In this document: in pieces, positions 14,896 to 25,382 of the stretch | How the letters are laid out: every line of letters begins with the position of its first letter | How positions within the stretch are numbered: position 1 is the stretch's first letter | Assembly (NCBI RefSeq): GCF_001278075.1 | Contig: NZ_CP011340.1 | Span: 4,898,001-4,962,000, forward strand | Source: Streptomyces pristinaespiralis | GTDB lineage: Bacteria > Actinomycetota > Actinomycetes > Streptomycetales > Streptomycetaceae | Direction: 5' to 3' | DNA: 64,000 nucleotides | Made by a program: the position numbers and the translations under genes | The notes under the pieces: generated by a model | Told to the model about the DNA's origin: nothing | Databases searched by the model: none | Seen by the model: only the letters and a program-made list of their open reading frames with translations

Positions 14896-16203
14896 CTACG
14901 AGGCGTCCATCAGGGTCCGGCCCACGTCCACGAAGTCCTTCCGCTGCGTCACCAGCCGTCCTTCGCTCACCACTTGGAACGTCACGCTGCTGTTGACGAT
15001 CCGCGGGTAGCGGGAAGCGCCGAGCATGTCCTCGTAGCTCCAGCGCAGGGCCGGTGTCAGGCCGTCGGTCGAGACCTCCACACCCTGGTCGAGGGCGTGG
15101 GAGATCTTGCCGGGGGTGATCCGGTCGCTGTCGATCGAGCTGACGACCTTGTTCAGGACGTTGTACGCGATCCAGGTGGTCTGCACGCCCGCGTCGGCCG
15201 GGTCGATCCTGTTGTCGCCGAACGCGTGGGTCCTGACGACGTCGCGCATCCGGTCCCAGCGGGCGTCGCTCGCGTCGGGGTACCAGCCGGTGATGTAGGC
15301 GCCCTCGTAAGGGCCGTTGCGGCCGCCGGTGCGGTCGATGAGGGGCTGGCCGACGCTGCCCATCACGGACGAGATCCTGACCTGCCGTCCGTCCTCGGGC
15401 AGCCGCCGGTAGGAGTCGAAGAAGGTTTCCGTGCGTTCGCCGAGGGCGGCCGTGACGCAGCCGGGCCGCTCGCCGTCGGACGCGGTCCAGACCGGCTCCG
15501 CCGCCTGCCTGCGCGCCCGCCGCGCCTCGTCGGAGTAGTCGGTGGCGTCGTCGGCGGCCAGGATGTCCGCCGACTCCCCGGCCTTGCCGCGGGCCAGGCC
15601 CGCGTTGAGCAGGTCGGGCAGGTCGTCACCGGCGAGGCTGTCCGGACGTACGAGCGCGACCTTGTCGCAGACGTCCGCGAGCTGCTGGCCGTTGCCGGCG
15701 AGCAGGGCGGCCTGTCCGCCGTTGACAGGGTAGGACAGATAACTGGTGAACTCCTCGTCGGAGACGCCGAATCCGCCGATGAAGGGGATGCCCGCGGCCT
15801 CCAGGGGAGCCATGAAGGCGTCGCCGTACTGGCTGTAGGAGCCGACCACCGCGGCCGCGCCCTCCTTGACGGCGCGCCGGGCGCAGGTGGCCGCGCCCTG
15901 GGGGGTGTTCTGCTCGTTGCAGGTGATGACACGCAGCTCATGGCCGTCGATGCCGCCCTGCGCCGCGGCCCAGCGGGCATAGGCCTTCGCCATGGCGGGC
16001 ATGCCGGGCATATTGGTCGCTTTGGTGTCTTCCGGGGCGAAGGTCATGACGGTGACGGGCTCCCTGGAGCCCCCCGGATCTCCAGGGAGTACGCCACAGC
16101 CGACGATGAGCGACGCCCCGGTCGCCACCACCGCCGTACACGCGGCACGGACTGAGAAGGTCTTGGAGGGGCGAGGGGAGGAGGGACGACGCCTACCGGT
16201 CAT
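14896..16203 (-). CDS. Branched-chain amino-acid-type ABC substrate-binding lipoprotein
   Basis: A 435-residue extracytoplasmic binding protein of the LivJ/periplasmic-binding type I fold. The signal peptide ends in a lipobox, LIVGCG, near residue 36, so it is lipid-anchored. The mature part starts with VTVMTFAPEDT and contains GVSDEEFTSYLSYPV and ADDATDYSDEARRAR. No permease or ATPase gene is near, so it is an orphan that may serve as a sensor or pair with a remote transporter. The ATG at 16203 gives a twin-Arg/Lys-rich N-terminus; longer versions have no signal peptide. Confidence 0.85.
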   Translation of the reverse strand: MTGRRRPSSPRPSKTFSVRAACTAVVATGASLIVGCGVLPGDPGGSREPVTVMTFAPEDTKATNMPGMPAMAKAYARWAAAQGGIDGHELRVITCNEQNTPQGAATCARRAVKEGAAAVVGSYSQYGDAFMAPLEAAGIPFIGGFGVSDEEFTSYLSYPVNGGQAALLAGNGQQLADVCDKVALVRPDSLAGDDLPDLLNAGLARGKAGESADILAADDATDYSDEARRARRQAAEPVWTASDGERPGCVTAALGERTETFFDSYRRLPEDGRQVRISSVMGSVGQPLIDRTGGRNGPYEGAYITGWYPDASDARWDRMRDVVRTHAFGDNRIDPADAGVQTTWIAYNVLNKVVSSIDSDRITPGKISHALDQGVEVSTDGLTPALRWSYEDMLGASRYPRIVNSSVTFQVVSEGRLVTQRKDFVDVGRTLMDAS

Positions 16204-16311
16204 GACTGTGCACGCTTCCGGTTCCAGGTAACGGCACAGTGAGCATGGCTCAACGAAGGGTGACGTCCAGGTGAATTGCAGGGGTGCGTCCGGGCTGCCG
16301 GAAAGGGAACG

Positions 16312-16317
16312 TACGAT
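16312..16317 (+). promoter_or_regulatory. -10 element for a leaderless start
   Basis: TACGAT ends eight bases before the GTG at 16325. This is the spacing expected when transcription starts on the initiation codon. Confidence 0.35.
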
Positions 16318-16324
16318 CGAAGGC

Positions 16325-16822
16325 GTGCAGCAAGGTTCGGTCAACCCTTCCCGTCGCGGCCGTCGCTCCTCCACCATGGGCGGCATGCCGCTCAACGACA
16401 TGCCCTGGTGGCGCTGGCGCAGCAACGTGCGCTCGGCGCTGCACATGCTTTCCGACCCCGTCTTCCATCAGGAGTGCTGGCTGGCGGGGCGCGAGGGATA
16501 CGGCGACGTCACCGACGCCGTCTACCGTCTGGTCGAGGACACGTGGCTCGACAACTGGTCCGCGGAGAAGTACGTCGGGACGATCTTCCGTGACTCCGGC
16601 GAGGCCGCGCTCGTCGACGTCGCCGTGCTGCGGGTGCTGCGGATCATGCACCAGGTCGGCGCCGACGCCCCGGTGTCCGCGTACATGGAGCACCACGGCT
16701 GGCCGGAGGCCGTGCGGGCGGCGCGTGACGCGCACGTCCGGATGGCCACCAGCGACGGGGAGGACCCCGACACCCCGCCGCGCTCCCTCGAGGTGCTGCG
16801 GATCATGACACGGTCCGCCTGA
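16325..16822 (+). CDS. Small conserved actinobacterial protein (SCO4402-like)
   Basis: A 165-residue protein of unknown function. The conserved core begins MPLNDMPWWRWRSNVRSALH (codon 21 onward) and runs to the end, with many Trp, Arg and His residues and no membrane segment. I recall a Streptomyces family named after SCO4402 with this core, immediately before purU. The GTG at 16325 fits a leaderless transcript; ATGs at 16376 and 16385 are alternatives but lack ribosome-binding sites. It lies 45 bp before purU on the same strand and is probably co-transcribed with it. Confidence 0.75.
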   Translation: MQQGSVNPSRRGRRSSTMGGMPLNDMPWWRWRSNVRSALHMLSDPVFHQECWLAGREGYGDVTDAVYRLVEDTWLDNWSAEKYVGTIFRDSGEAALVDVAVLRVLRIMHQVGADAPVSAYMEHHGWPEAVRAARDAHVRMATSDGEDPDTPPRSLEVLRIMTRSA

Positions 16823-16867
16823 CGGACGTGTTCCTGGCCGGGCGGCCGGATGTGGGAGGCTACAAGG

Positions 16868-17719
16868 ATGACCGACCAGTACGTCCTGACGCTCTCCTGT
16901 CCTGACAAACAGGGCATCGTGCACGCCGTCTCGAGCTACCTGTTCATCACCGGCTGCAACATCGAGGACAGCCGGCAGTTCGGTGACCGGGACACTGGTC
17001 TGTTCTTCATGCGGGTGCACTTCTCCGCCGAGACCCCGGTGACGGTCGACAAGCTGCGCGCCAGCTTCGCCGCCGTCGGTGACGCCTTCCAGATGGACTG
17101 GCAGATCCATCTCGCCGACGAGCGGATGCGGATCGTGCTGATGGTCAGCAAGTTCGGGCACTGCCTGAACGACCTGCTGTTCCGTTCCCGTACCGGCGCC
17201 CTGCCCGTCGAGATCGCGGCCGTCGTCTCCAACCACACCGACTTCGCCGAGCTCGTCGCCTCCTACGACATCCCGTTCCATCACATTCCGGTCACCAAGG
17301 ACAACAAGGCCGCCGCCGAGGCGCAGCTGCTGGACCTGGTGCACGCCGAGCAGGTGGAGCTCGTCGTCCTCGCCCGCTACATGCAGGTGCTCTCCGACGA
17401 CCTCTGCAAGCAGCTCAGCGGCCGGATCATCAACATCCACCACTCCTTCCTGCCGAGCTTCAAGGGCGCCAAGCCCTACCACCAGGCGCACGCCCGCGGT
17501 GTGAAGCTCATCGGCGCGACCGCCCACTACGTGACGGCCGACCTCGACGAGGGCCCGATCATCGAGCAGGAGGTCGAACGCGTCGGCCACGAGGTCACTC
17601 CCGAGCAGCTGGTCGCGGTCGGCCGCGACGTGGAGTGCCAGGCGCTGGCCCGCGCGGTGAAGTGGCACGCGGAGCACCGCATCCTGCTCAACGGCCGCCG
17701 CACCGTCGTCTTCGCCTGA
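16868..17719 (+). CDS. purU: Formyltetrahydrofolate deformylase
   Basis: PurU (283 residues) hydrolyses 10-formyltetrahydrofolate to tetrahydrofolate and formate, balancing one-carbon and purine metabolism in the cytoplasm. An ACT domain (about residues 5-80, beginning YVLTLSCPDKQGIVHAVSSY) precedes a formyltransferase-fold domain (about 90-283). The catalytic Asn and His lie in NIHHSFLPSF and the Asp in DLDEGPIIEQ. Length and motifs match the family fully. The ATG at 16868 follows GGGAGG at a long spacing, plus AAGG. It ends at a convergent boundary with the solute-binding gene. Confidence 0.95.
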   Translation: MTDQYVLTLSCPDKQGIVHAVSSYLFITGCNIEDSRQFGDRDTGLFFMRVHFSAETPVTVDKLRASFAAVGDAFQMDWQIHLADERMRIVLMVSKFGHCLNDLLFRSRTGALPVEIAAVVSNHTDFAELVASYDIPFHHIPVTKDNKAAAEAQLLDLVHAEQVELVVLARYMQVLSDDLCKQLSGRIINIHHSFLPSFKGAKPYHQAHARGVKLIGATAHYVTADLDEGPIIEQEVERVGHEVTPEQLVAVGRDVECQALARAVKWHAEHRILLNGRRTVVFA

Positions 17720-17816: not shown

Positions 17817-19097
17817 CTACCCGGCGACGGCCGGGGTGCCGCACAGGTCGTCCAGGACGAACGCCTTCTCCTTGTCCTGCAGCAGACGCTCCGCCTCCAG
17901 CTGCTTCAGCAGCCGGTCCAGCAGCGCCGGGTCGTCCGGGCGGACGGCGAACTCCAGCACGGCCCGGTAGAAGGCGTCGCGCAAGGTCGGCGGCATCGCG
18001 TCCGAGGCGTCGAAACAGATCCGGCCCGCCGAGCGGAACAGCTCCTGGACGTCCTTGGTGGCCGACGGTCCCGTGGCGGCCGTCGTGCCGCCGGGGAAGA
18101 ACGGCCGCTCGCCGGGCATGGCCTCGGCCGCCCAGCTGTCCCGGGCCTTCTTGGAGGTGAGCCGGTCGAGCAGGTCCCAGGCGGCCGCACTGCTCCTGAA
18201 CACCGCGGCCATGTCGCCCGACACCTCGAAGGCGTTCTCGTCGTCCTCGTCCTCCTTCGCGGCCGGCGGCCTGTCCAGATGGTCTGCCGTCGGCCGGGGC
18301 CGCACGTCGTCGCCGTAGTGCCTGCGGATGAACGAGCCCTGGTGCTCATGGGTGCAGTCGCCGCGGTTCAGGAGTCCGTAGCGGTCGCCGCCGAGCTTCT
18401 CGAAGTCGTTCAGCCACCGGGCGTCGGGGGCGCGTCCGCCCGCGGTGAGTATCCGCGCCCACTCCTCCCAGACCGGACGGGTCTCCTCCCAGGGCTTCCT
18501 GCCCGTGGCCCATTCCTCGTACTCCGCCGAGCCCTCGCGCTGAAGCATCAGGTCCTCGATCCAGTCGGTGCCCGGCCAGCCGGAGGTGGCGCCCGAGCCG
18601 AGTCCCACGCACCACACGGGGGCGGAGTCCGCCGCCTCGTTCCTGCTCCACACCAGCGACTTGAGGTCCACCCGGATGGGAGCCCAGTACGCGCGGGTCC
18701 GCGCCTCCCCGGCCGCGTCCTCGACCGTGACGGCGGGCGCCCACGGAGTGACGGCGGCCCCGGCCACACGCTCCGGAAGCGGACGGAGATCACCCGCCCT
18801 GGCGTACTCGGCCAGCTCACCGGGGCTGTTGAGGATCGCCATGTCCGGCGGCGCGCCGGCCTGGAGCTGGGCGACGAGGGTCTCGCGCAGCGAGCGGGTG
18901 CCCTTGTAGACGTAGCGGTGCCCGGTCTGCTTCTCGATGCTCCGCAGCGCTTCGACGAACGGCTTCTCCTCGCCGTCGGCCCACGGGCCCAGCACGACCA
19001 GCGTGCGTTCCTCCGGCGGGCCGCCGCCGCACCCGGCCGTGGCCACGGCGAGCAGCACACCCGCCAGCAGCGTTCTCAGGCCCCTGCGTCTGCTCAT
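17817..19097 (-). CDS. Extracellular solute-binding lipoprotein of the trypsin/kinase operon
   Basis: A 426-residue lipoprotein with signal LLAGVLLAVATAGCGGG (lipobox Cys at about residue 23) and a family-1-type sugar-binding fold (TLVVLGPWADGEEKPFVEAL, then PPDMAILNSPGELAEYARAG). It is the last gene of a three-gene operon, seven bases after the membrane-protein gene, with GAGGA before its ATG. No ABC permease or ATPase follows. This suggests a ligand-sensing role beside the neighbouring membrane protein and not uptake. An acidic stretch EDEDDEN near residue 270 is unusual for a binding protein. Confidence 0.8.
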   Translation of the reverse strand: MSRRRGLRTLLAGVLLAVATAGCGGGPPEERTLVVLGPWADGEEKPFVEALRSIEKQTGHRYVYKGTRSLRETLVAQLQAGAPPDMAILNSPGELAEYARAGDLRPLPERVAGAAVTPWAPAVTVEDAAGEARTRAYWAPIRVDLKSLVWSRNEAADSAPVWCVGLGSGATSGWPGTDWIEDLMLQREGSAEYEEWATGRKPWEETRPVWEEWARILTAGGRAPDARWLNDFEKLGGDRYGLLNRGDCTHEHQGSFIRRHYGDDVRPRPTADHLDRPPAAKEDEDDENAFEVSGDMAAVFRSSAAAWDLLDRLTSKKARDSWAAEAMPGERPFFPGGTTAATGPSATKDVQELFRSAGRICFDASDAMPPTLRDAFYRAVLEFAVRPDDPALLDRLLKQLEAERLLQDKEKAFVLDDLCGTPAVAG

Positions 19098-19104
19098 GAG
19101 TTCC

Positions 19105-20337
19105 TCACGCGTCGGTGTACGTCCGTCGTGTGCGGGCCGCCGGGTACGGCCTGCCGTAGAGATAGAGCGTGACGCCGCAGGCGACCGCCCCGAGCCCCGC
19201 GGCCGGCACGGTGATCCCCGCCGTGAGCGACCAGCCGTCCGGGTCCGCCACGCTCATCCGCGTGTGGGCCGCGTCCGCCGCCCGCTCGATCGCCCGCGGG
19301 GCGCCCTCGTCCGCTTCCAGGTCCGCCAGCCCGGCGACCGCCGCGTGCACGTCCTGCTGGGCGCCGTGCTCCTGGGCCCCGCCGAACGCCAGCAGCAGCG
19401 GCGTCACCAGCACCGGCAGCGCGCCCGCCGCCAACTGGAGGCTGACCAGCCGCAGGCGGTCCCGCAGGAAGACCGCCGTGCCGACGGTCAGGAAGCCGAA
19501 CAGCGCGGTCGTCAGCACGGCCGCTCCGGCGGCCGTCAGCGTCAGCGGGCTCCACGCGGCGAGGTCGCCGCTCTCCTGCCGCAGCAGGCTCTCCATCTCC
19601 TCGATCCGGTCCAGCACGGTCGTCGGGTCCTGGCCCTCCGCGGGGTCCGTGTCCGGGCTGCCGAGCAGGCCCGCCGCGTACTCGACACCGGCGGTGCGCA
19701 GCAGCTTGCTCGACCGGTTGCGGTCCGCCCAGGCGATCTTGTCGCCGTAGGCGACGACCAGCCCGGACACCACCCGCAGCTCCTGTTCCTGTCCCCGGCT
19801 CAGGGCACCGGTCTGGGCCACCCGGTTCAGGCTCTGCGACGCCTCCGTCAGCCGCGAACGGTACGTCTCGCCGAGCTCGACCCGACCGGCCTGCCGGGCC
19901 TCGAGCAACCGCAGCTCGGCCTGCTTCCCCGCCAGGACCAGGGACGTACGGGCCTGTGCCAGCCCTTCCAGCGCCGGCACCGACCGGTGCCTCAACCGGT
20001 CGGAGCGACCGTGCACATCGCTGTAGGCGGCGGCGCACAGCGCGAGAGCGACGAGCGCCAGGGCGGGCAGCACCAGCATCCGGCGCCGCAGGAACGCGGC
20101 CGTCGCCCGCCGTCCCCCGGGGCCCCGCCCGGTGGCCCGCGCCCACACCCCGGGCCCGAGCACCCGCCAGACCTTGACCCATGGGGCGGGCCCCGGTCCC
20201 GGCGGCCGCCGCACCGCTTCGACGGGGCGGCGCCACAGCGCGGCCACGCTCCGCCGTGCGGACGGCCGCACCTCTGTTCCGCCGGCCTTCTCCTCGGCGG
20301 CGTCCGCCGGCGGGCCGGTGTACGGACGCGTGGTCAT
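19105..20337 (-). CDS. Four-TM membrane protein with helical extracytoplasmic domain
   Basis: A 410-residue protein. A cytoplasmic N-terminus of about 85 residues is followed by TM1 (about 88-108, MLVLPALALVALALCAAAY), then about 150 residues of extracytoplasmic helices with the heptad-like look of a four-helix-bundle sensor (RSVPALEGLAQARTSLVLAG, and a second helix pair ending LRQESGDLAAW). Two adjacent TMs, a second outside helix pair and a final TM near the C-terminus follow. Its ATG overlaps the stop of the trypsin/kinase gene (ATGA), so both are made together. It probably links the extracellular binding lipoprotein to the cytoplasmic protease/kinase. Confidence 0.75.
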   Translation of the reverse strand: MTTRPYTGPPADAAEEKAGGTEVRPSARRSVAALWRRPVEAVRRPPGPGPAPWVKVWRVLGPGVWARATGRGPGGRRATAAFLRRRMLVLPALALVALALCAAAYSDVHGRSDRLRHRSVPALEGLAQARTSLVLAGKQAELRLLEARQAGRVELGETYRSRLTEASQSLNRVAQTGALSRGQEQELRVVSGLVVAYGDKIAWADRNRSSKLLRTAGVEYAAGLLGSPDTDPAEGQDPTTVLDRIEEMESLLRQESGDLAAWSPLTLTAAGAAVLTTALFGFLTVGTAVFLRDRLRLVSLQLAAGALPVLVTPLLLAFGGAQEHGAQQDVHAAVAGLADLEADEGAPRAIERAADAAHTRMSVADPDGWSLTAGITVPAAGLGAVACGVTLYLYGRPYPAARTRRTYTDA

Positions 20338-23300
20338 GAACGGCCCCCGGGGGTCAGGCGGCGCAGCCAGGGGCCGCGGTCGTGGTGGCGGGCGTGGCGC
20401 AGGCCGAGCGGGCGGGTGCTGTACGCGTTGTCGAGGAGCGCCTCCGCCAGCGCGGCGCCCGCCGCGGTGTCCGTGTCCGGTACCTGCTTCGCCAGCCGGC
20501 GGTAGCTCGCCGACAACCGCTCGCGCAGCTCCCGTTCGGTCCGCGGGAGCGGGACGGACGCCGGCAGCGCGGCGCGCATCCGCTCGAGCACGCCGGCGCC
20601 CTGCGACCGCACCAGCTCGAGCAGTTGCTCGAGCAGCTCCGCCGTGAGCCGCTCCTGCGCCTGCGGGTCGGTGAGCCCCTCGTGGCCCGCGAGCCGGTGC
20701 AGGGCGGCGTGGGCGCGCACCGCGGAGGCGACCTGGGGCGTGCCGGCGTGGATGCGCACCATCGCCGTCCGCGCCGCCGTGCGGTGCCGCGAGTCGGGCG
20801 GGACGCCGTCGAGGGAGGCCAGCGCGCGGTCGGGGCTGTGCCGGGCGAGGTGGATGCGGGCGAGCCCGAACGCGGCCGCGCCGAGGGCGTGGTTGCGCCG
20901 CCACACCGCGTCGTAGAACAGCATGGCCTGCTGCTCGTGCGCCTCACGCGCCGCCGGGGCCTCGGGCGCGTCGGCCCGTTCCCCGGTCCGCCACTCGTCG
21001 GCGAGCTTCTCGTGGCAGTAGCCGAGGGCGAGCTTGGGCGCGTACTCGCCGGGGATCGCCGCGTACACGGTGTCGAAGCAGTTCAGCGCCCGGTGCAGCC
21101 GGCCGTGGGCCAGCTGGGCCAGACCCTGGTGCCAGTCCAGGCGCCAGTCGTAACGGGCGCGGTCCCCGAGCAGCCGCCCGGCCCTCTCCAGTTCCACCGC
21201 GGCGGTCACCAGTTCCTTGTCGCGGCCGTGACGGCGGACGCCTGCCAGCTCCAGATGGAGCCTGCAGCGCAGCAGATGCAGCTCCGGCGACGGCAGCCAC
21301 TCGTCGCTGAGCTGGAGCAGACCGGCGGGGTCGTCGTAGGAGGTGCGCTGGAGCTCCTTCCAGTTGGGGTCCCGCACATCGGCCTTCGGCACGGGCAGGG
21401 CCACCGCGGCCTCCGCCGGCTCCGGCACATGGGCGCCGAGCCGGTCGGCCGTGCCGTCCGCCCGCCAGCGCTCCAGCGGCGGCGGTTTGCCCAGCCGGCC
21501 GTCCAGCGCGATCGCGGCCGAGTGGAACAGCGGGGACGGCTCGAACGTCTCCTCGTCCAGCCGCAGCGACCGCAGTTCGCGCAGCACACCCCGCAGCTGG
21601 ACGGCCATCTCCTGCGCGGAGGCGTAACGCCGCCTCGGATCGGTGGCCGTGGCGCGCGAGAGGGCGCGCCGGAGCGATTCGGTGCCGAGGTCGGACGGCG
21701 GTGCCGGGTCCTTGGCGAGCAGTTCACCGAGGACGGCGCCGACGGTGTAGAGGTCGCCCGCGGTGGTCATCCCGCCGTCGGGCCCGCTCTCCGGCGGCCG
21801 GTGGCTGACCGGCCCCGGCGCGCCCGGCTCGCGTACGCCCGCGACGTCGATGAGTTTGATGCCGGTGCCGCAGTGCAGGACGTTGGTGAGCGACAGGTCG
21901 CCGTAGACCAGCTTCTCCTCCCCGTGGAGGTGGTCGAGGGCCTCCAGCACGAGCAGGCCGTACACGACGATGAACTCCCGTACCCGCGGCCCCGCGAACG
22001 GCTCGACGCTCCGGGCGATGCGGGAGCCGACCCAGGACAGCGACGCGCCGTCGGCGAACTCCATCACGATGAACTCGGCAGATGTCCGCTCGTGGCGCGC
22101 GTAGTTGACCACCCGGATGACCGAGGGGTGGTTGAGGCTGACGAGCCGCAGCCGCTCCTGGTGGGCCTGGAGCACGGCCGCCGGATCGCCGGGGTCGAGG
22201 ATGCCCTTGAGGGCGACGGGACGGTTCTCCAGGAGAAGATCGCGCGCGAGGTACACCTTGCCGTGGCTGCCCTGCCCGATGGGCCCCACCACCTCGTACT
22301 GCTGGTGCAGCCGCTCGCCGCCCGCGAGGCGGTCCCCGGCCTGCTCGGTGACGAGCGCGTCCGGGTCGCGGACGGCCACGGCCGGCAGATCGGTCAGCCC
22401 GTCACCGGGCGGGCCGACGACGAACTCGCGGGGACCCGCCGGTCCGGTGAGCTCCTCCTCGGCCGTCTCCGCGTCGAGCAGCGCGGCCTCGATGTCGACG
22501 GCGCAGCGGAACAGGGCGTGCGGCTGTTCGGCGGAGCCGTTCAACGGGCCCGCCGGGCCGAGCTGTTCCAGCATCCGGCGCAGCCGTGGGGCCAGGGCGG
22601 CCGGCCGCCGGCCGGACAGCTGCCGCAGCCGCTGCTCGGTCTCCGCGAGCCGGCTCACCCGGGTGCCGAGCCGTTCCGTGCGGCGGGCGGCCCAGTCGGG
22701 GCCGAGGAGTTCGTCGCGCACCCGGGCGAGGAGCGGGGAGCGGGGGTCGCTGAAGACGAGCAGGAGCCGGCTCTGGCCGTGGGAGAGGAGCGCGGAGAGG
22801 AGCCGCAGCATCTCGTCGTCGGTGGAGGCCGACCGGTCGACGGACAGGAAGGCGGCGATCAGCGGCGGGCTCTCGGCCGCGATCCGTCCGAGCAGGTCCC
22901 CGTCCGCGCCGCCCGGCGGACCGTCCGTGGGGGGATCGAGACCGATACGGTCCGCCGCGTCCCTGGCCAGCCCGGCGACGGTGCGGTTCGTGGCGTCGAC
23001 CGCGATGTCGATGCTGCCCGCCTGCGGCTCACCCGTCACCTGCGCCGGGCCCGTCGCACTGCCCCGGGCGGGCGGTGCCTCCGGAGGGCTCTGCTCACGG
23101 TCGGCGAGGGTGAGCACCGATCTGACCGTGTGCAGCACGTCGTGCTCGCCCTCGCCGGCGAACACGGGCTCCACCGGGTCGGTGTCCGGTGCGCCGTCGA
23201 GCCAGCGCGTCAGCCGACGGTGCAGCCCCGGCACGCGCCCGGAGGCGGTCCTGTCGTGGGCGACCGCGACATCGTGCGACACGGCCGGCTTGCCGGTGAC

Positions 23301-23987
23301 CGTCAGGCCCAGCCGCTCCAGCGGCAGGTGCTTCAGCACCGTCTCGGTCGGGATCATGTACGCGTGGTCCCGGCGCACCCGCGCCTGCGGCGTGCCGAAC
23401 TGGTGCGCCACGATGCCGATGACCCGCCGGGAACGGCTGTGCACGACGGCGCATCCGCTGTAACCGCGACGCACCACGTACGGCGCGTTCAGCGCGTCGA
23501 GCTGCACCCACTCCGGCGTGGGCGCGGGACCGCCGCGCCCCATCAGCCGGGCGTCCAGATGCTCCCCGCCGGGCAGGTCCTCCGGGTAACCGGTGAAGTG
23601 CACCATGTCGCCGCGCGCCGGGATCTGCCGGTGCAGTACGGCGTGCGGGACCGCCGGTTCCTGGTCCAGCTTGAGCAGCGCGAGATCGCCGCCGTACTGG
23701 CCCGTCGGCATGACCAGGTACTCCCTCAGCAGCCGGGCCCGCAGGGGCTCCGGGGTGTGTCCGGCCGGGGCGTGGGGTACGTCGACGTAGACCTCCTCCA
23801 GCGGGGTGCGGATGCCGGAGGAGTCAGGGCGCATCAGGACGACATGCGCGCAGGTGAGCACCAGGCCGCCGGGCAGCAGCACCCCGGCGCCGAGCGGCCG
23901 GCCCGCCCGATCCGGTCCGCGGAGCGGACGTACCCGCCAACTCTCTTCATGTATAGCGGAGTTGGATGTGCGAATCGGCTCGCTCAT
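20334..23987 (-). CDS. Trypsin-like protease / PknG-like kinase / TPR fusion
   Basis: A 1217-residue cytoplasmic multidomain protein. Residues 1-215 form a trypsin-fold protease with a visible triad: His48 (LTCAHVV), Asp101 (YGGDLALLKL) and Ser177 (RRGYSGCAVV). Residues about 330-500 form an alpha/beta then helical linker. Residues about 560-820 form a PknG-type kinase with loop GQGSHGKV, VALKG lysine, a YGDLSLTN catalytic loop (Lys of DLKP is Ser) and LIDVAG where DFG is expected. A TPR-like region follows (about 850-1217). There is no signal peptide. ATG 23987 is preferred over TTG 23996. It heads the operon and is divergent from the trypco2-like gene. Confidence 0.85.
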   Translation of the reverse strand: MSEPIRTSNSAIHEESWRVRPLRGPDRAGRPLGAGVLLPGGLVLTCAHVVLMRPDSSGIRTPLEEVYVDVPHAPAGHTPEPLRARLLREYLVMPTGQYGGDLALLKLDQEPAVPHAVLHRQIPARGDMVHFTGYPEDLPGGEHLDARLMGRGGPAPTPEWVQLDALNAPYVVRRGYSGCAVVHSRSRRVIGIVAHQFGTPQARVRRDHAYMIPTETVLKHLPLERLGLTVTGKPAVSHDVAVAHDRTASGRVPGLHRRLTRWLDGAPDTDPVEPVFAGEGEHDVLHTVRSVLTLADREQSPPEAPPARGSATGPAQVTGEPQAGSIDIAVDATNRTVAGLARDAADRIGLDPPTDGPPGGADGDLLGRIAAESPPLIAAFLSVDRSASTDDEMLRLLSALLSHGQSRLLLVFSDPRSPLLARVRDELLGPDWAARRTERLGTRVSRLAETEQRLRQLSGRRPAALAPRLRRMLEQLGPAGPLNGSAEQPHALFRCAVDIEAALLDAETAEEELTGPAGPREFVVGPPGDGLTDLPAVAVRDPDALVTEQAGDRLAGGERLHQQYEVVGPIGQGSHGKVYLARDLLLENRPVALKGILDPGDPAAVLQAHQERLRLVSLNHPSVIRVVNYARHERTSAEFIVMEFADGASLSWVGSRIARSVEPFAGPRVREFIVVYGLLVLEALDHLHGEEKLVYGDLSLTNVLHCGTGIKLIDVAGVREPGAPGPVSHRPPESGPDGGMTTAGDLYTVGAVLGELLAKDPAPPSDLGTESLRRALSRATATDPRRRYASAQEMAVQLRGVLRELRSLRLDEETFEPSPLFHSAAIALDGRLGKPPPLERWRADGTADRLGAHVPEPAEAAVALPVPKADVRDPNWKELQRTSYDDPAGLLQLSDEWLPSPELHLLRCRLHLELAGVRRHGRDKELVTAAVELERAGRLLGDRARYDWRLDWHQGLAQLAHGRLHRALNCFDTVYAAIPGEYAPKLALGYCHEKLADEWRTGERADAPEAPAAREAHEQQAMLFYDAVWRRNHALGAAAFGLARIHLARHSPDRALASLDGVPPDSRHRTAARTAMVRIHAGTPQVASAVRAHAALHRLAGHEGLTDPQAQERLTAELLEQLLELVRSQGAGVLERMRAALPASVPLPRTERELRERLSASYRRLAKQVPDTDTAAGAALAEALLDNAYSTRPLGLRHARHHDRGPWLRRLTPGGRS

Positions 23988-24023
23988 ACTGCCCAACGAT
24001 AACTACGGTAGAGGGGGGACGCG

Positions 24024-24329
24024 ATGGCTGAGCGTGACGAAACCGCGGTCGTGGGGCTGGCGGAGGTCATCGGACAGGTGCGCGACGAGCTCGAGCGGGC
24101 CCAACGTGCCGGTGAGGGACGCGATCTGCGGTTCAGCGTGGAGAACGTGCAACTGGAGTTCGCGGTGCAGGTGCGCCGTGAGGGCAGCGGGCGGGCCGAG
24201 CTCCGGATCGGGGTGCTGACGGCCGGCGGCGGCGGCTCCGCGGCGCGCGACACCACGCACACCATCAAGGTGGAGCTGAAGCCGCACGGTCCGGACGGCG
24301 ACCCGAACATCAGCGTCGGCGGTGAGTGA
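24024..24329 (+). CDS. Trypco2-like (trypsin-co-occurring domain 2) protein
   Basis: A 101-residue protein that resembles the trypsin-co-occurring domain 2 family, small proteins encoded beside trypsin-containing conflict systems. Recognisable parts are the N-terminal helix GLAEVIGQVRDELERAQ, the strand pair LRFSVENVQLEFAVQV and the C-terminal HTIKVELKP strand. A GGGACGCG ribosome-binding region precedes the ATG. Its start is only 36 bp from that of the divergent trypsin/kinase gene, which supports a functional pair. It may bind or be cleaved by the protease; that is inference. Confidence 0.7.
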   Translation: MAERDETAVVGLAEVIGQVRDELERAQRAGEGRDLRFSVENVQLEFAVQVRREGSGRAELRIGVLTAGGGGSAARDTTHTIKVELKPHGPDGDPNISVGGE

Positions 24330-24392: not shown

Positions 24393-25382
24393 TCAGCCGG
24401 CCACCAGCGACTCGCCCACGCTGGTACGGGCGTAGAGCACCACGCGACCCGTGCGGTGCGCGCTGACCAGACCGGCCGCGCGCATCGCCGTCAGATGCTG
24501 TGAGACACCTCCCGCCGACAGGCCGGTGCGGCGGGCCAGGTCGGTCGTCGACGCCGGGGCCGCGAGCTCGGCCAGCAGCAGGGCCCTGCCGCGCCCCAGC
24601 ACCCCCGCCAGGGCGTCGGAGAGCGGCTGCGCCCGCCCTTCCCACAAGGTGGCGGTGCCCCGGGGCGGGTAGCGCAGGGTGGGCTGCCAGTCCGGGCTGT
24701 CCACGTCGGAGAAGATCCGCGGCCCGGCGAACACGGAGGGCACCAGGAGCAGTCCGCGGCCGTCCAGGCGCCGTTCGCCGCGTACACAGCGGTGCATCAC
24801 CTGCAAGGTGCCCGAGTCCCAGGTGAGCCGCGGATCGAGGTCGTCGAAGAGACGCCGGGCACCGCCTTCGGCGAGACGCTTGGCGCGGTAGAGGATGTCG
24901 CCCTCCACCACCGTGAGGATCCGCGGCCAGTACGGGGCCATCGCCACCTCCCAGTAGGCGGCGATCACGTCCGCGAGCCGCCCGAGACCGCGCTCCGGGT
25001 CCGCGCGCAGTGCGGCGACCCCCTCCCGCGCGGCGGGTGTCGTCGTACGGATCAGCTCGTGCGGCATGGAACGCAGCGCCGCCAACTCCACGTCCAGCGA
25101 GGGCTGCGGTGTCGTGGGCGGCGCCACCAGGAAGCCGGGGACGCCGGCCGGCGGCGGGCCGATCAGACAGGACAGCGGGGTGAGGTCCAGTTTCGCGGCC
25201 GCGAGAGCGGGCCGTACCCGCTCCGCCCACGGCCGGTGCACCCCCGGCCCGGTGTCCCTGAGCACCCGCACGCTCGCGACGACCTCCCACAGCGGGGACA
25301 CGGCGAAACGCGTGCGGGCCACGTCCTCCGCGGAGAAGCCGATCTCCAGTGTCCCGCCCTCCGGGCGGCTCTCCAGCACCAT
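24393..25382 (-). CDS. ArsR-like regulator with N-terminal DUF5937-type domain
   Basis: A 329-residue regulator with an unusual order: a long N-terminal domain (about residues 1-230, with TRFAVSPLWEVVASVRVL typical of the DUF5937 group) and a C-terminal winged helix (about 250-325, TTDLARRTGLSAGGVSQHL then VLYARTSVGESLVAG). ArsR-type helices of this kind bind DNA as dimers. It is divergent from an MFS exporter gene, with 55 bp between the starts, and most likely represses that gene. The ligand is unknown. Confidence 0.85.
   Translation of the reverse strand: MVLESRPEGGTLEIGFSAEDVARTRFAVSPLWEVVASVRVLRDTGPGVHRPWAERVRPALAAAKLDLTPLSCLIGPPPAGVPGFLVAPPTTPQPSLDVELAALRSMPHELIRTTTPAAREGVAALRADPERGLGRLADVIAAYWEVAMAPYWPRILTVVEGDILYRAKRLAEGGARRLFDDLDPRLTWDSGTLQVMHRCVRGERRLDGRGLLLVPSVFAGPRIFSDVDSPDWQPTLRYPPRGTATLWEGRAQPLSDALAGVLGRGRALLLAELAAPASTTDLARRTGLSAGGVSQHLTAMRAAGLVSAHRTGRVVLYARTSVGESLVAG

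Follow-up and report, generated by a model that had tools for sequence, protein, structure and literature searches.

Introduction

Why would a bacterium fuse a trypsin-like protease to a kinase of the PknG type and keep the fused gene beside those of a membrane protein and a solute-binding lipoprotein? The question is raised by positions 17817 to 24329 of a stretch of 64,000 nucleotides of Streptomyces pristinaespiralis (assembly GCF_001278075.1, contig NZ_CP011340.1, positions 4,898,001 to 4,962,000), here called the window, from a genome of 8.53 Mb in a single contig. An earlier note on this DNA, made from its letters, had described a fusion of trypsin, kinase and tetratricopeptide repeat (TPR) domains, a protein with four transmembrane (TM) segments, a solute-binding protein (SBP) in the form of a lipoprotein and a divergent Trypco2-like gene, and gene calls and Pfam confirm all four in their places. 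The same note knew of no described system with exactly these parts, which passes over the GlnH-GlnX-PknG cascade of the literature (PMC6069109, PMC9769921), a match to three of them. The answer that we favour, with modest confidence, is that the window holds a paralogue of this cascade that would have taken on a trypsin/Trypco protease module as its cytoplasmic output.

A Paralogous and Altered Copy of the PknG Cascade

In Corynebacterium and Mycobacterium, pknG is described in an operon with glnX, whose product has four TM segments and extracytoplasmic helical bundles, and with glnH, which encodes an SBP lipoprotein; in the published model the signal passes from the ligand to GlnH, from there to GlnX, and finally to PknG through its TPR domain (PMC6069109, PMC9769921, PMC8546545). 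The source genome of the window has a canonical set of its own about 0.73 Mb away (locus L004), made up of glnX, glnH, a gene for a helical protein, pknG, and PP2C, vWA and FHA genes; its GlnH belongs to SBP_bac_3, and ten FHA matches were counted in the whole genome. Since the canonical set and three matching parts of the window occur in the same genome, the window, judged by homology, holds a paralogous, altered copy. What it has in common with the GlnH-GlnX-PknG (OdhI/GarA) cascade, as published, is an SBP lipoprotein, a four-TM relay with a long TM1-H1 helix, a cytoplasmic PknG-type kinase with TPR, and genes that lie together. It departs from it in the trypsin fused to the kinase, the divergent Trypco2 gene, the absence of a rubredoxin-like CxxC, the replacement of SBP_bac_3 by SBP_bac_1, and a shorter second extracytoplasmic part of GlnX, of about 50 residues vs about 153 in the published protein.

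The fusion gene (20334..23987, minus strand) encodes 1217 residues from MSEP, and its parts are above the Pfam cut-offs: Trypsin_2 (23412..23891; 33.8 bits against 27.6), Pkinase (21657..22298; 50.2 against 31.7) and PknG_TPR, PF16918 (20466..21434; 135.7 against 27), with the kinase-TPR part also matching solved PknG chains. The protease part resembles HtrA/DegS proteases in fold searches and has an intact triad, His48-Asp101-Ser177, in which Ser177 is by alignment the catalytic residue of the trypsin-like domain. Between protease and kinase, residues 250-514 or so (22446..23240) are modelled by AlphaFold as an alpha/beta and helical region with a predicted confidence (pLDDT) mostly above 85. 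No Pfam family lies above its cut-off there, the presence of the VMAP model in the library not having been checked, and the Foldseek and VIA lists for the fusion were filled by protease matches.

The four-TM protein (410 residues; 19105..20337, minus strand) was recognized by hydropathy, by its model and by homology through intermediates. It has no Pfam match, its direct likeness to the canonical GlnX is not significant (BLASTP E 0.57; hhalign probability 9-17%), and a Foldseek search with its model found no significant match in the PDB (best E 0.044). Two profiles, one of the window family (A1, E 2.7e-19) and one of canonical GlnX alone (E 9.8e-11), nevertheless meet on a single membrane protein of genome G172 (locus L072), and for this reason the four-TM protein is counted, by way of intermediates and together with its topology and model, as a GlnX-type relay. 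Searched against the open reading frames (ORFs) of the 78 loci of the census described below and of L004-L031, the canonical profile matched 19 proteins of the variant type, all at the position expected for a GlnX-like gene and with E from 2.8e-16 to 5.9e-6, and recovered canonical GlnX in L004 and L129; the window protein, those of the other fusions and the kinase-only loci went unmatched. In the model (pLDDT 86.7) there is a TM1-H1 helix of 67 residues (79-145) and a helix ahead of TM1 (52-68); GlnX of C. glutamicum is likewise reported to have a TM1-H1 helix of 67 residues and, ahead of TM1, an amphipathic helix (PMC9769921). Many relatives of the four-TM protein (P0084-P0203) carry a precomputed PF28326 match, and some of the GlnX-like or SBP matches (G151, G299, G060 and others) are reported with an internal stop codon.

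The lipoprotein (426 residues; 17817..19097, minus strand) has a plausible lipobox Cys23 and an SBP_bac_1 domain (37.4 bits, cut-off 26), and its family is conserved beside the GlnX-like gene. Its profile (A4) scored at least 214.9 bits at 120 places, spread over 115 of the 295 Streptomyces genomes by a count made by eye, and the next score was 153.9; outside the genus six genomes reached at least 263 bits. One of the places outside the genus, L142 (263 bits), resembles a transporter locus by eye and is probably one, so that beyond Streptomyces the SBP score by itself is not enough to define the system. Searched against PDB sequences, the same profile returned one weak family-1 SBP and no clue to the ligand.

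The three minus-strand genes overlap or abut, as had been noted: the ATG of the four-TM gene overlaps the stop codon of the fusion gene by 4 nt, and the lipoprotein gene begins 7 nt past the end of the four-TM gene.

Conservation and Census of the Operon

With the fusion protein as query, 27 loci were found, all in Streptomyces; kinase, GlnX-like and SBP genes are consecutive in 26 of them, and the 27th (L007) ends at a contig edge. The trypsin part is present in eight, seven of which (not L011) have the divergent Trypco2, and none of the 19 others has it, an absence that is uninformative on the short contigs of L020 and L029. The trypsin-middle half, used as a protein query, matched 76 proteins, and those with a named source are from Streptomyces bar one Kribbella AAA ATPase (E 2.8e-4). 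Canonical GlnX occurs in 29 of 31 genomes of the family. Of 147 genomes of the order, 18 have a GlnX of the window-type family, and every one of these is a Streptomyces. A search with A2 over 198 genomes of the phylum, with at most three candidates scored per genome, mostly matched the kinase part and says little about distribution. The neighbourhood is kept at about 40% identity and below, and so is not confined to near-identical strains, which by the earlier note would have refuted its reading.

A census of 78 loci was then compiled from the window and 77 fetched regions (17 window-type GlnX matches, 52 SBP places from Streptomyces and eight from the search outside the genus), chosen not at random but for their GlnX2 or SBP score and for long contigs, with trypsin and vWA not among the criteria. 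Separate trypsin and kinase genes and a vWA gene are found in 51 loci, in the order trypsin, PknG-like kinase, vWA, GlnX-like (mostly detectable) and SBP; seven (the window, L079 and L095-L099) have the trypsin-kinase fusion without vWA, and 14 have kinase, GlnX-like and SBP genes with neither trypsin nor vWA. The remaining six are L080, with vWA and no kinase, L139-L142, whose fetched stretches contain no kinase, and L143, with kinase and vWA and no trypsin. Given the 51 loci with separate genes and vWA, the protease-kinase fusion is, by this comparison, not the basic form of the operon. The vWA pattern DxSxS is present in 36 of 53. A GlnX-like match was missing by tblastn in 12 of the 78 loci, eight of which have a four-TM ORF beside the SBP gene or a match to the canonical GlnX profile; in L132, L133, L134 and L142 the gene was not settled by tblastn, the ORF check or that profile. 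A GlnX-like and SBP pair stands at L140:11464-14084 and at L141:5963-8595.

Of the 58 trypsins, 57 keep the whole His-Asp-Ser triad, the other being that of L129, in which Ala replaces the catalytic Ser. Among 73 kinases, in an alignment with six or seven rows cut short, the Lys is kept in 65/66, Glu in 65/66, Asp697 in 66/67, Asn in 66/67 and Asp714 in 67/67, and Gly571 is changed to Ala in 36. The Lys of the catalytic loop is replaced by Ser (Ser699 in the window) in all seven fusion kinases and in no others. A rubredoxin-like domain ahead of the PknG kinase is found in most actinobacteria, not in corynebacteria; PF16919 gave no match in a Pfam scan of the window operon, and a CxxC precedes the kinase in 43 of 51 separate-gene loci, one of 15 no-trypsin kinases and none of the seven fusions. 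In several no-trypsin kinases (L024-L028, L030, L031) a long insert interrupts the similarity to the window kinase past residue 757 or so, the longest, of roughly 1.3 kb, being in L027.

The Trypco Genes

The divergent gene (24024..24329, plus strand; 101 residues) matches Trypco2, PF19631, with 101.4 bits against a cut-off of 24.2, so that its assignment in the earlier note holds, as does its distance: 36 nt (23988..24023) separate the two start codons and include the block GTAGTTATCGTT in minus-strand reading. Among 14 fused loci compared, some of them near-duplicates, ten have a gap of 36 nt, one has 35 and three have 61-70, and GTAGTTATCGT is exact in ten. The source genome has no second Trypco2 match, and a PDB sequence search with Trypco2 gave nothing significant.

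Trypco2 had also been presented as a companion of trypsins, and in part it is: in the census it accompanies 29 of 58 trypsin loci, namely 22 of the 51 separate-gene loci, where it is divergent, and seven of the seven fusions, and it occurs in none of the 14 no-trypsin loci or the six others. The association is not universal; no further Trypco2 was gained by the Pfam profile in the other 29 trypsin loci, in five of which (G419, G034, G220, G042 and G066) Trypco1 lies instead directly downstream of the SBP gene. Trypco1 and Trypco2 are described as mutually exclusive neighbours of trypsins (PMC7159879).

A Shared Domain and a Possible Exchange of Effectors

In the canonical locus, the helical protein encoded ahead of PknG matches, by its C-terminal part, the C-terminus of the separate trypsins. 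A phmmer search of a small database with this protein alone found the L070 trypsin (1.6e-13) and an EAD1 protein of L143 (1.2e-10), and a profile of the shared domain, built from 26 rows, matched 35 of the 51 separate trypsins (11 of them outside the training set), the same EAD1 protein and, in L004 and L129, the canonical helical proteins. None of the seven fusions and none of the 14 kinase-only loci gave a match. The shared domain is probably a docking domain, and its absence from the fusions would fit this role, since a fused protease no longer needs to dock.

Locus L143, from genome G483 of another family of the class, has genes for a PknG_rubred kinase, a vWA protein, a GlnX-like protein and an SBP_bac_1 protein; upstream, in place of a trypsin, stand the EAD1 protein and a single protein (L143:2967-5693) that joins TIR, protein kinase and binding-protein-like NMT1_3 domains. 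EAD1 and TIR are described as parts of conflict systems (PMC7159879).

Origin of the Variant Operon

In a kinase tree of 46 rows (25 of the 51 separate-gene kinases, 10 of the 15 without trypsin, all seven fusions and four canonical ones), made by a quick method and with long-branch warnings, the variant kinases stand apart from the four canonical ones (100) and the fusions form one clade within them (100). Eight of the ten no-trypsin kinases form a clade nested among separate-trypsin kinases, and because of this nesting the idea that no-trypsin operons are the ancestral state was dropped. In three close relatives (L120, L123 and L129) the variant operon follows the canonical FHA gene, a place beside the canonical locus that suggests an origin by tandem duplication; their canonical kinases are nearly alike, so that they amount in effect to one lineage.

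Genomic Surroundings

No ABC-transporter domain was found by Pfam in the seven flanking ORFs and the ArsR-type neighbour, in agreement with the earlier note; these ORFs include one further binding protein and one MFS permease. Some 1.4 kb past the SBP gene comes a Peripla_BP_6 gene (14896-16446, minus), with a convergent formyl-transferase gene (ACT and Formyl_trans_N; 16850-17719) between them, and the ArsR-type regulator, with a DUF5937 match, is at 24393-25382 (minus); among L005-L031, a relative of it was detected in L005 only. The window operon has no vWA match, and neither it nor the scanned flanking ORFs contain a MoxR AAA+ ATPase, for which the relatives were not scanned. PADLOC gave kinase matches, a weak RT-protease match and no complete system, and the NCBIfam kinase matches fell far under their cut-offs.

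Discussion

How would such an operon work? The lipoprotein would bind a ligand outside the membrane; the loaded SBP would act on the GlnX-like protein at its helical bundle, and the signal would run down the long TM helices; and the PknG-like kinase, tied to GlnX through the TPR domain, would shift in activity or shape. These steps are quite likely, by homology to a published and partly unproven model. The change in the kinase would then switch the protease, which in the split relatives is a separate protein, probably docked to the PknG module by the C-terminal helical domain, and is fused here. We read the kinase as gating the protease because of the fusion, the kept gene order and the shared C-terminal domain, and our belief and doubt in this step are about equal. 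Trypco2 could inhibit the protease, serve it as an adaptor or be its substrate, as its neighbourhood suggests, and the protease might finally cut a cytoplasmic target, which is speculative. The route from extracellular ligand to cytoplasmic proteolysis proposed in the earlier note is thus still the best reading of gene order, fusion and shared domain; the conflict role that went with it is unproven.

Several observations weigh against this reading. The ligand, the complex and the cleavage are all predicted here, and the GlnH-GlnX and GlnX-PknG contacts of the model cascade itself are not yet demonstrated, according to a figure legend in PMC9769921. The SBP of the window is SBP_bac_1, not the amino-acid SBP_bac_3 of the GlnH type; the window-type kinase, having lost its catalytic-loop Lys in all seven cases, may be altered; 16 of the 51 separate trypsins are without the shared domain; Trypco1 or Trypco2 was found by the searches made in just 34 of 58 trypsin loci; and the EAD1/TIR case is one locus. 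Moreover, as 14 of the 78 loci keep kinase, GlnX-like and SBP genes without trypsin, the sensing half, to judge from gene content, functions, or at least persists, alone.

A physiological regulator and nothing else is quite possible, though we lean against it: the PknG paralogue would sense an extracellular solute, and the HtrA-like protease would, by limited proteolysis, adjust a regulator of metabolism or of the cell envelope, with no role in conflict or defence. The clear kinship to a metabolic cascade, an SBP family common in the genus, the HtrA/DegS-like character of the trypsin part, the operon's position beside the canonical locus in three close relatives, and the lack of MoxR or of a named defence system in the window operon all speak for it, whereas the Trypco1 and Trypco2 neighbours, and the EAD1 and TIR-kinase neighbour in L143, are of the kinds described as conflict-system parts (PMC7159879). 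With these neighbours in mind, one may tentatively, and with more doubt than belief, imagine an outward-looking class of conflict or cell-death systems, in which SBP and GlnX would, via the PknG-like kinase, fire exchangeable cytoplasmic effectors (trypsin with Trypco1 or Trypco2; EAD1/TIR in one distant relative), and which would descend from a duplicated metabolic PknG locus that captured conflict effectors. That trypsin and Trypco are an independent module sharing operon and polypeptide, uncontrolled by the kinase, is improbable: the loci without trypsin and vWA, and a tree in which most no-trypsin kinases are one clade nested among trypsin-bearing ones, do indicate that the modules can part, but the gene order that 58 of the 78 loci have in common, the gene fusion and the C-terminal domain common with the canonical pre-PknG protein argue otherwise.

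The paralogue with a protease output also invites comparison with other systems. With the VMAP (vWA-MoxR) ternary conflict systems, as described in PMC7159879, the window shares a trypsin-like protease with a Trypco neighbour, and most of its split relatives share a vWA gene too; it differs in having PknG kinase, GlnX and SBP in place of MoxR, and its operon lacks both MoxR and vWA. As a vWA gene is also part of the canonical pknG locus, it is no proof of VMAP kinship. Other Ser/Thr kinases that are fused to an SBP or genetically linked to one (SGR_4432, SCO1468, MSMEG_1200) have in common with the window a binding protein as likely kinase sensor, and their description in PMC6069109, on which the comparison is based, mentions no protease or Trypco gene. 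Neither PknG with a trypsin-like protease and vWA, nor Streptomyces PknG with trypsin-like and solute-binding proteins, was found described in the searches made of open-licence PMC literature. The system is real, conserved and, within those searches, not found described; it is a variant of a known cascade, not a new kind.

If our reading is right, PknG signalling would be more than a metabolic switch, with a second version through which a solute sensed outside the cell would act on a cytoplasmic protease, one of a type predicted for bacterial conflict systems. The Trypco proteins, whose role has so far been predicted only, would gain a defined partner and, as kinase and protease occur naturally both fused and split, the coupling of these two is directly testable.

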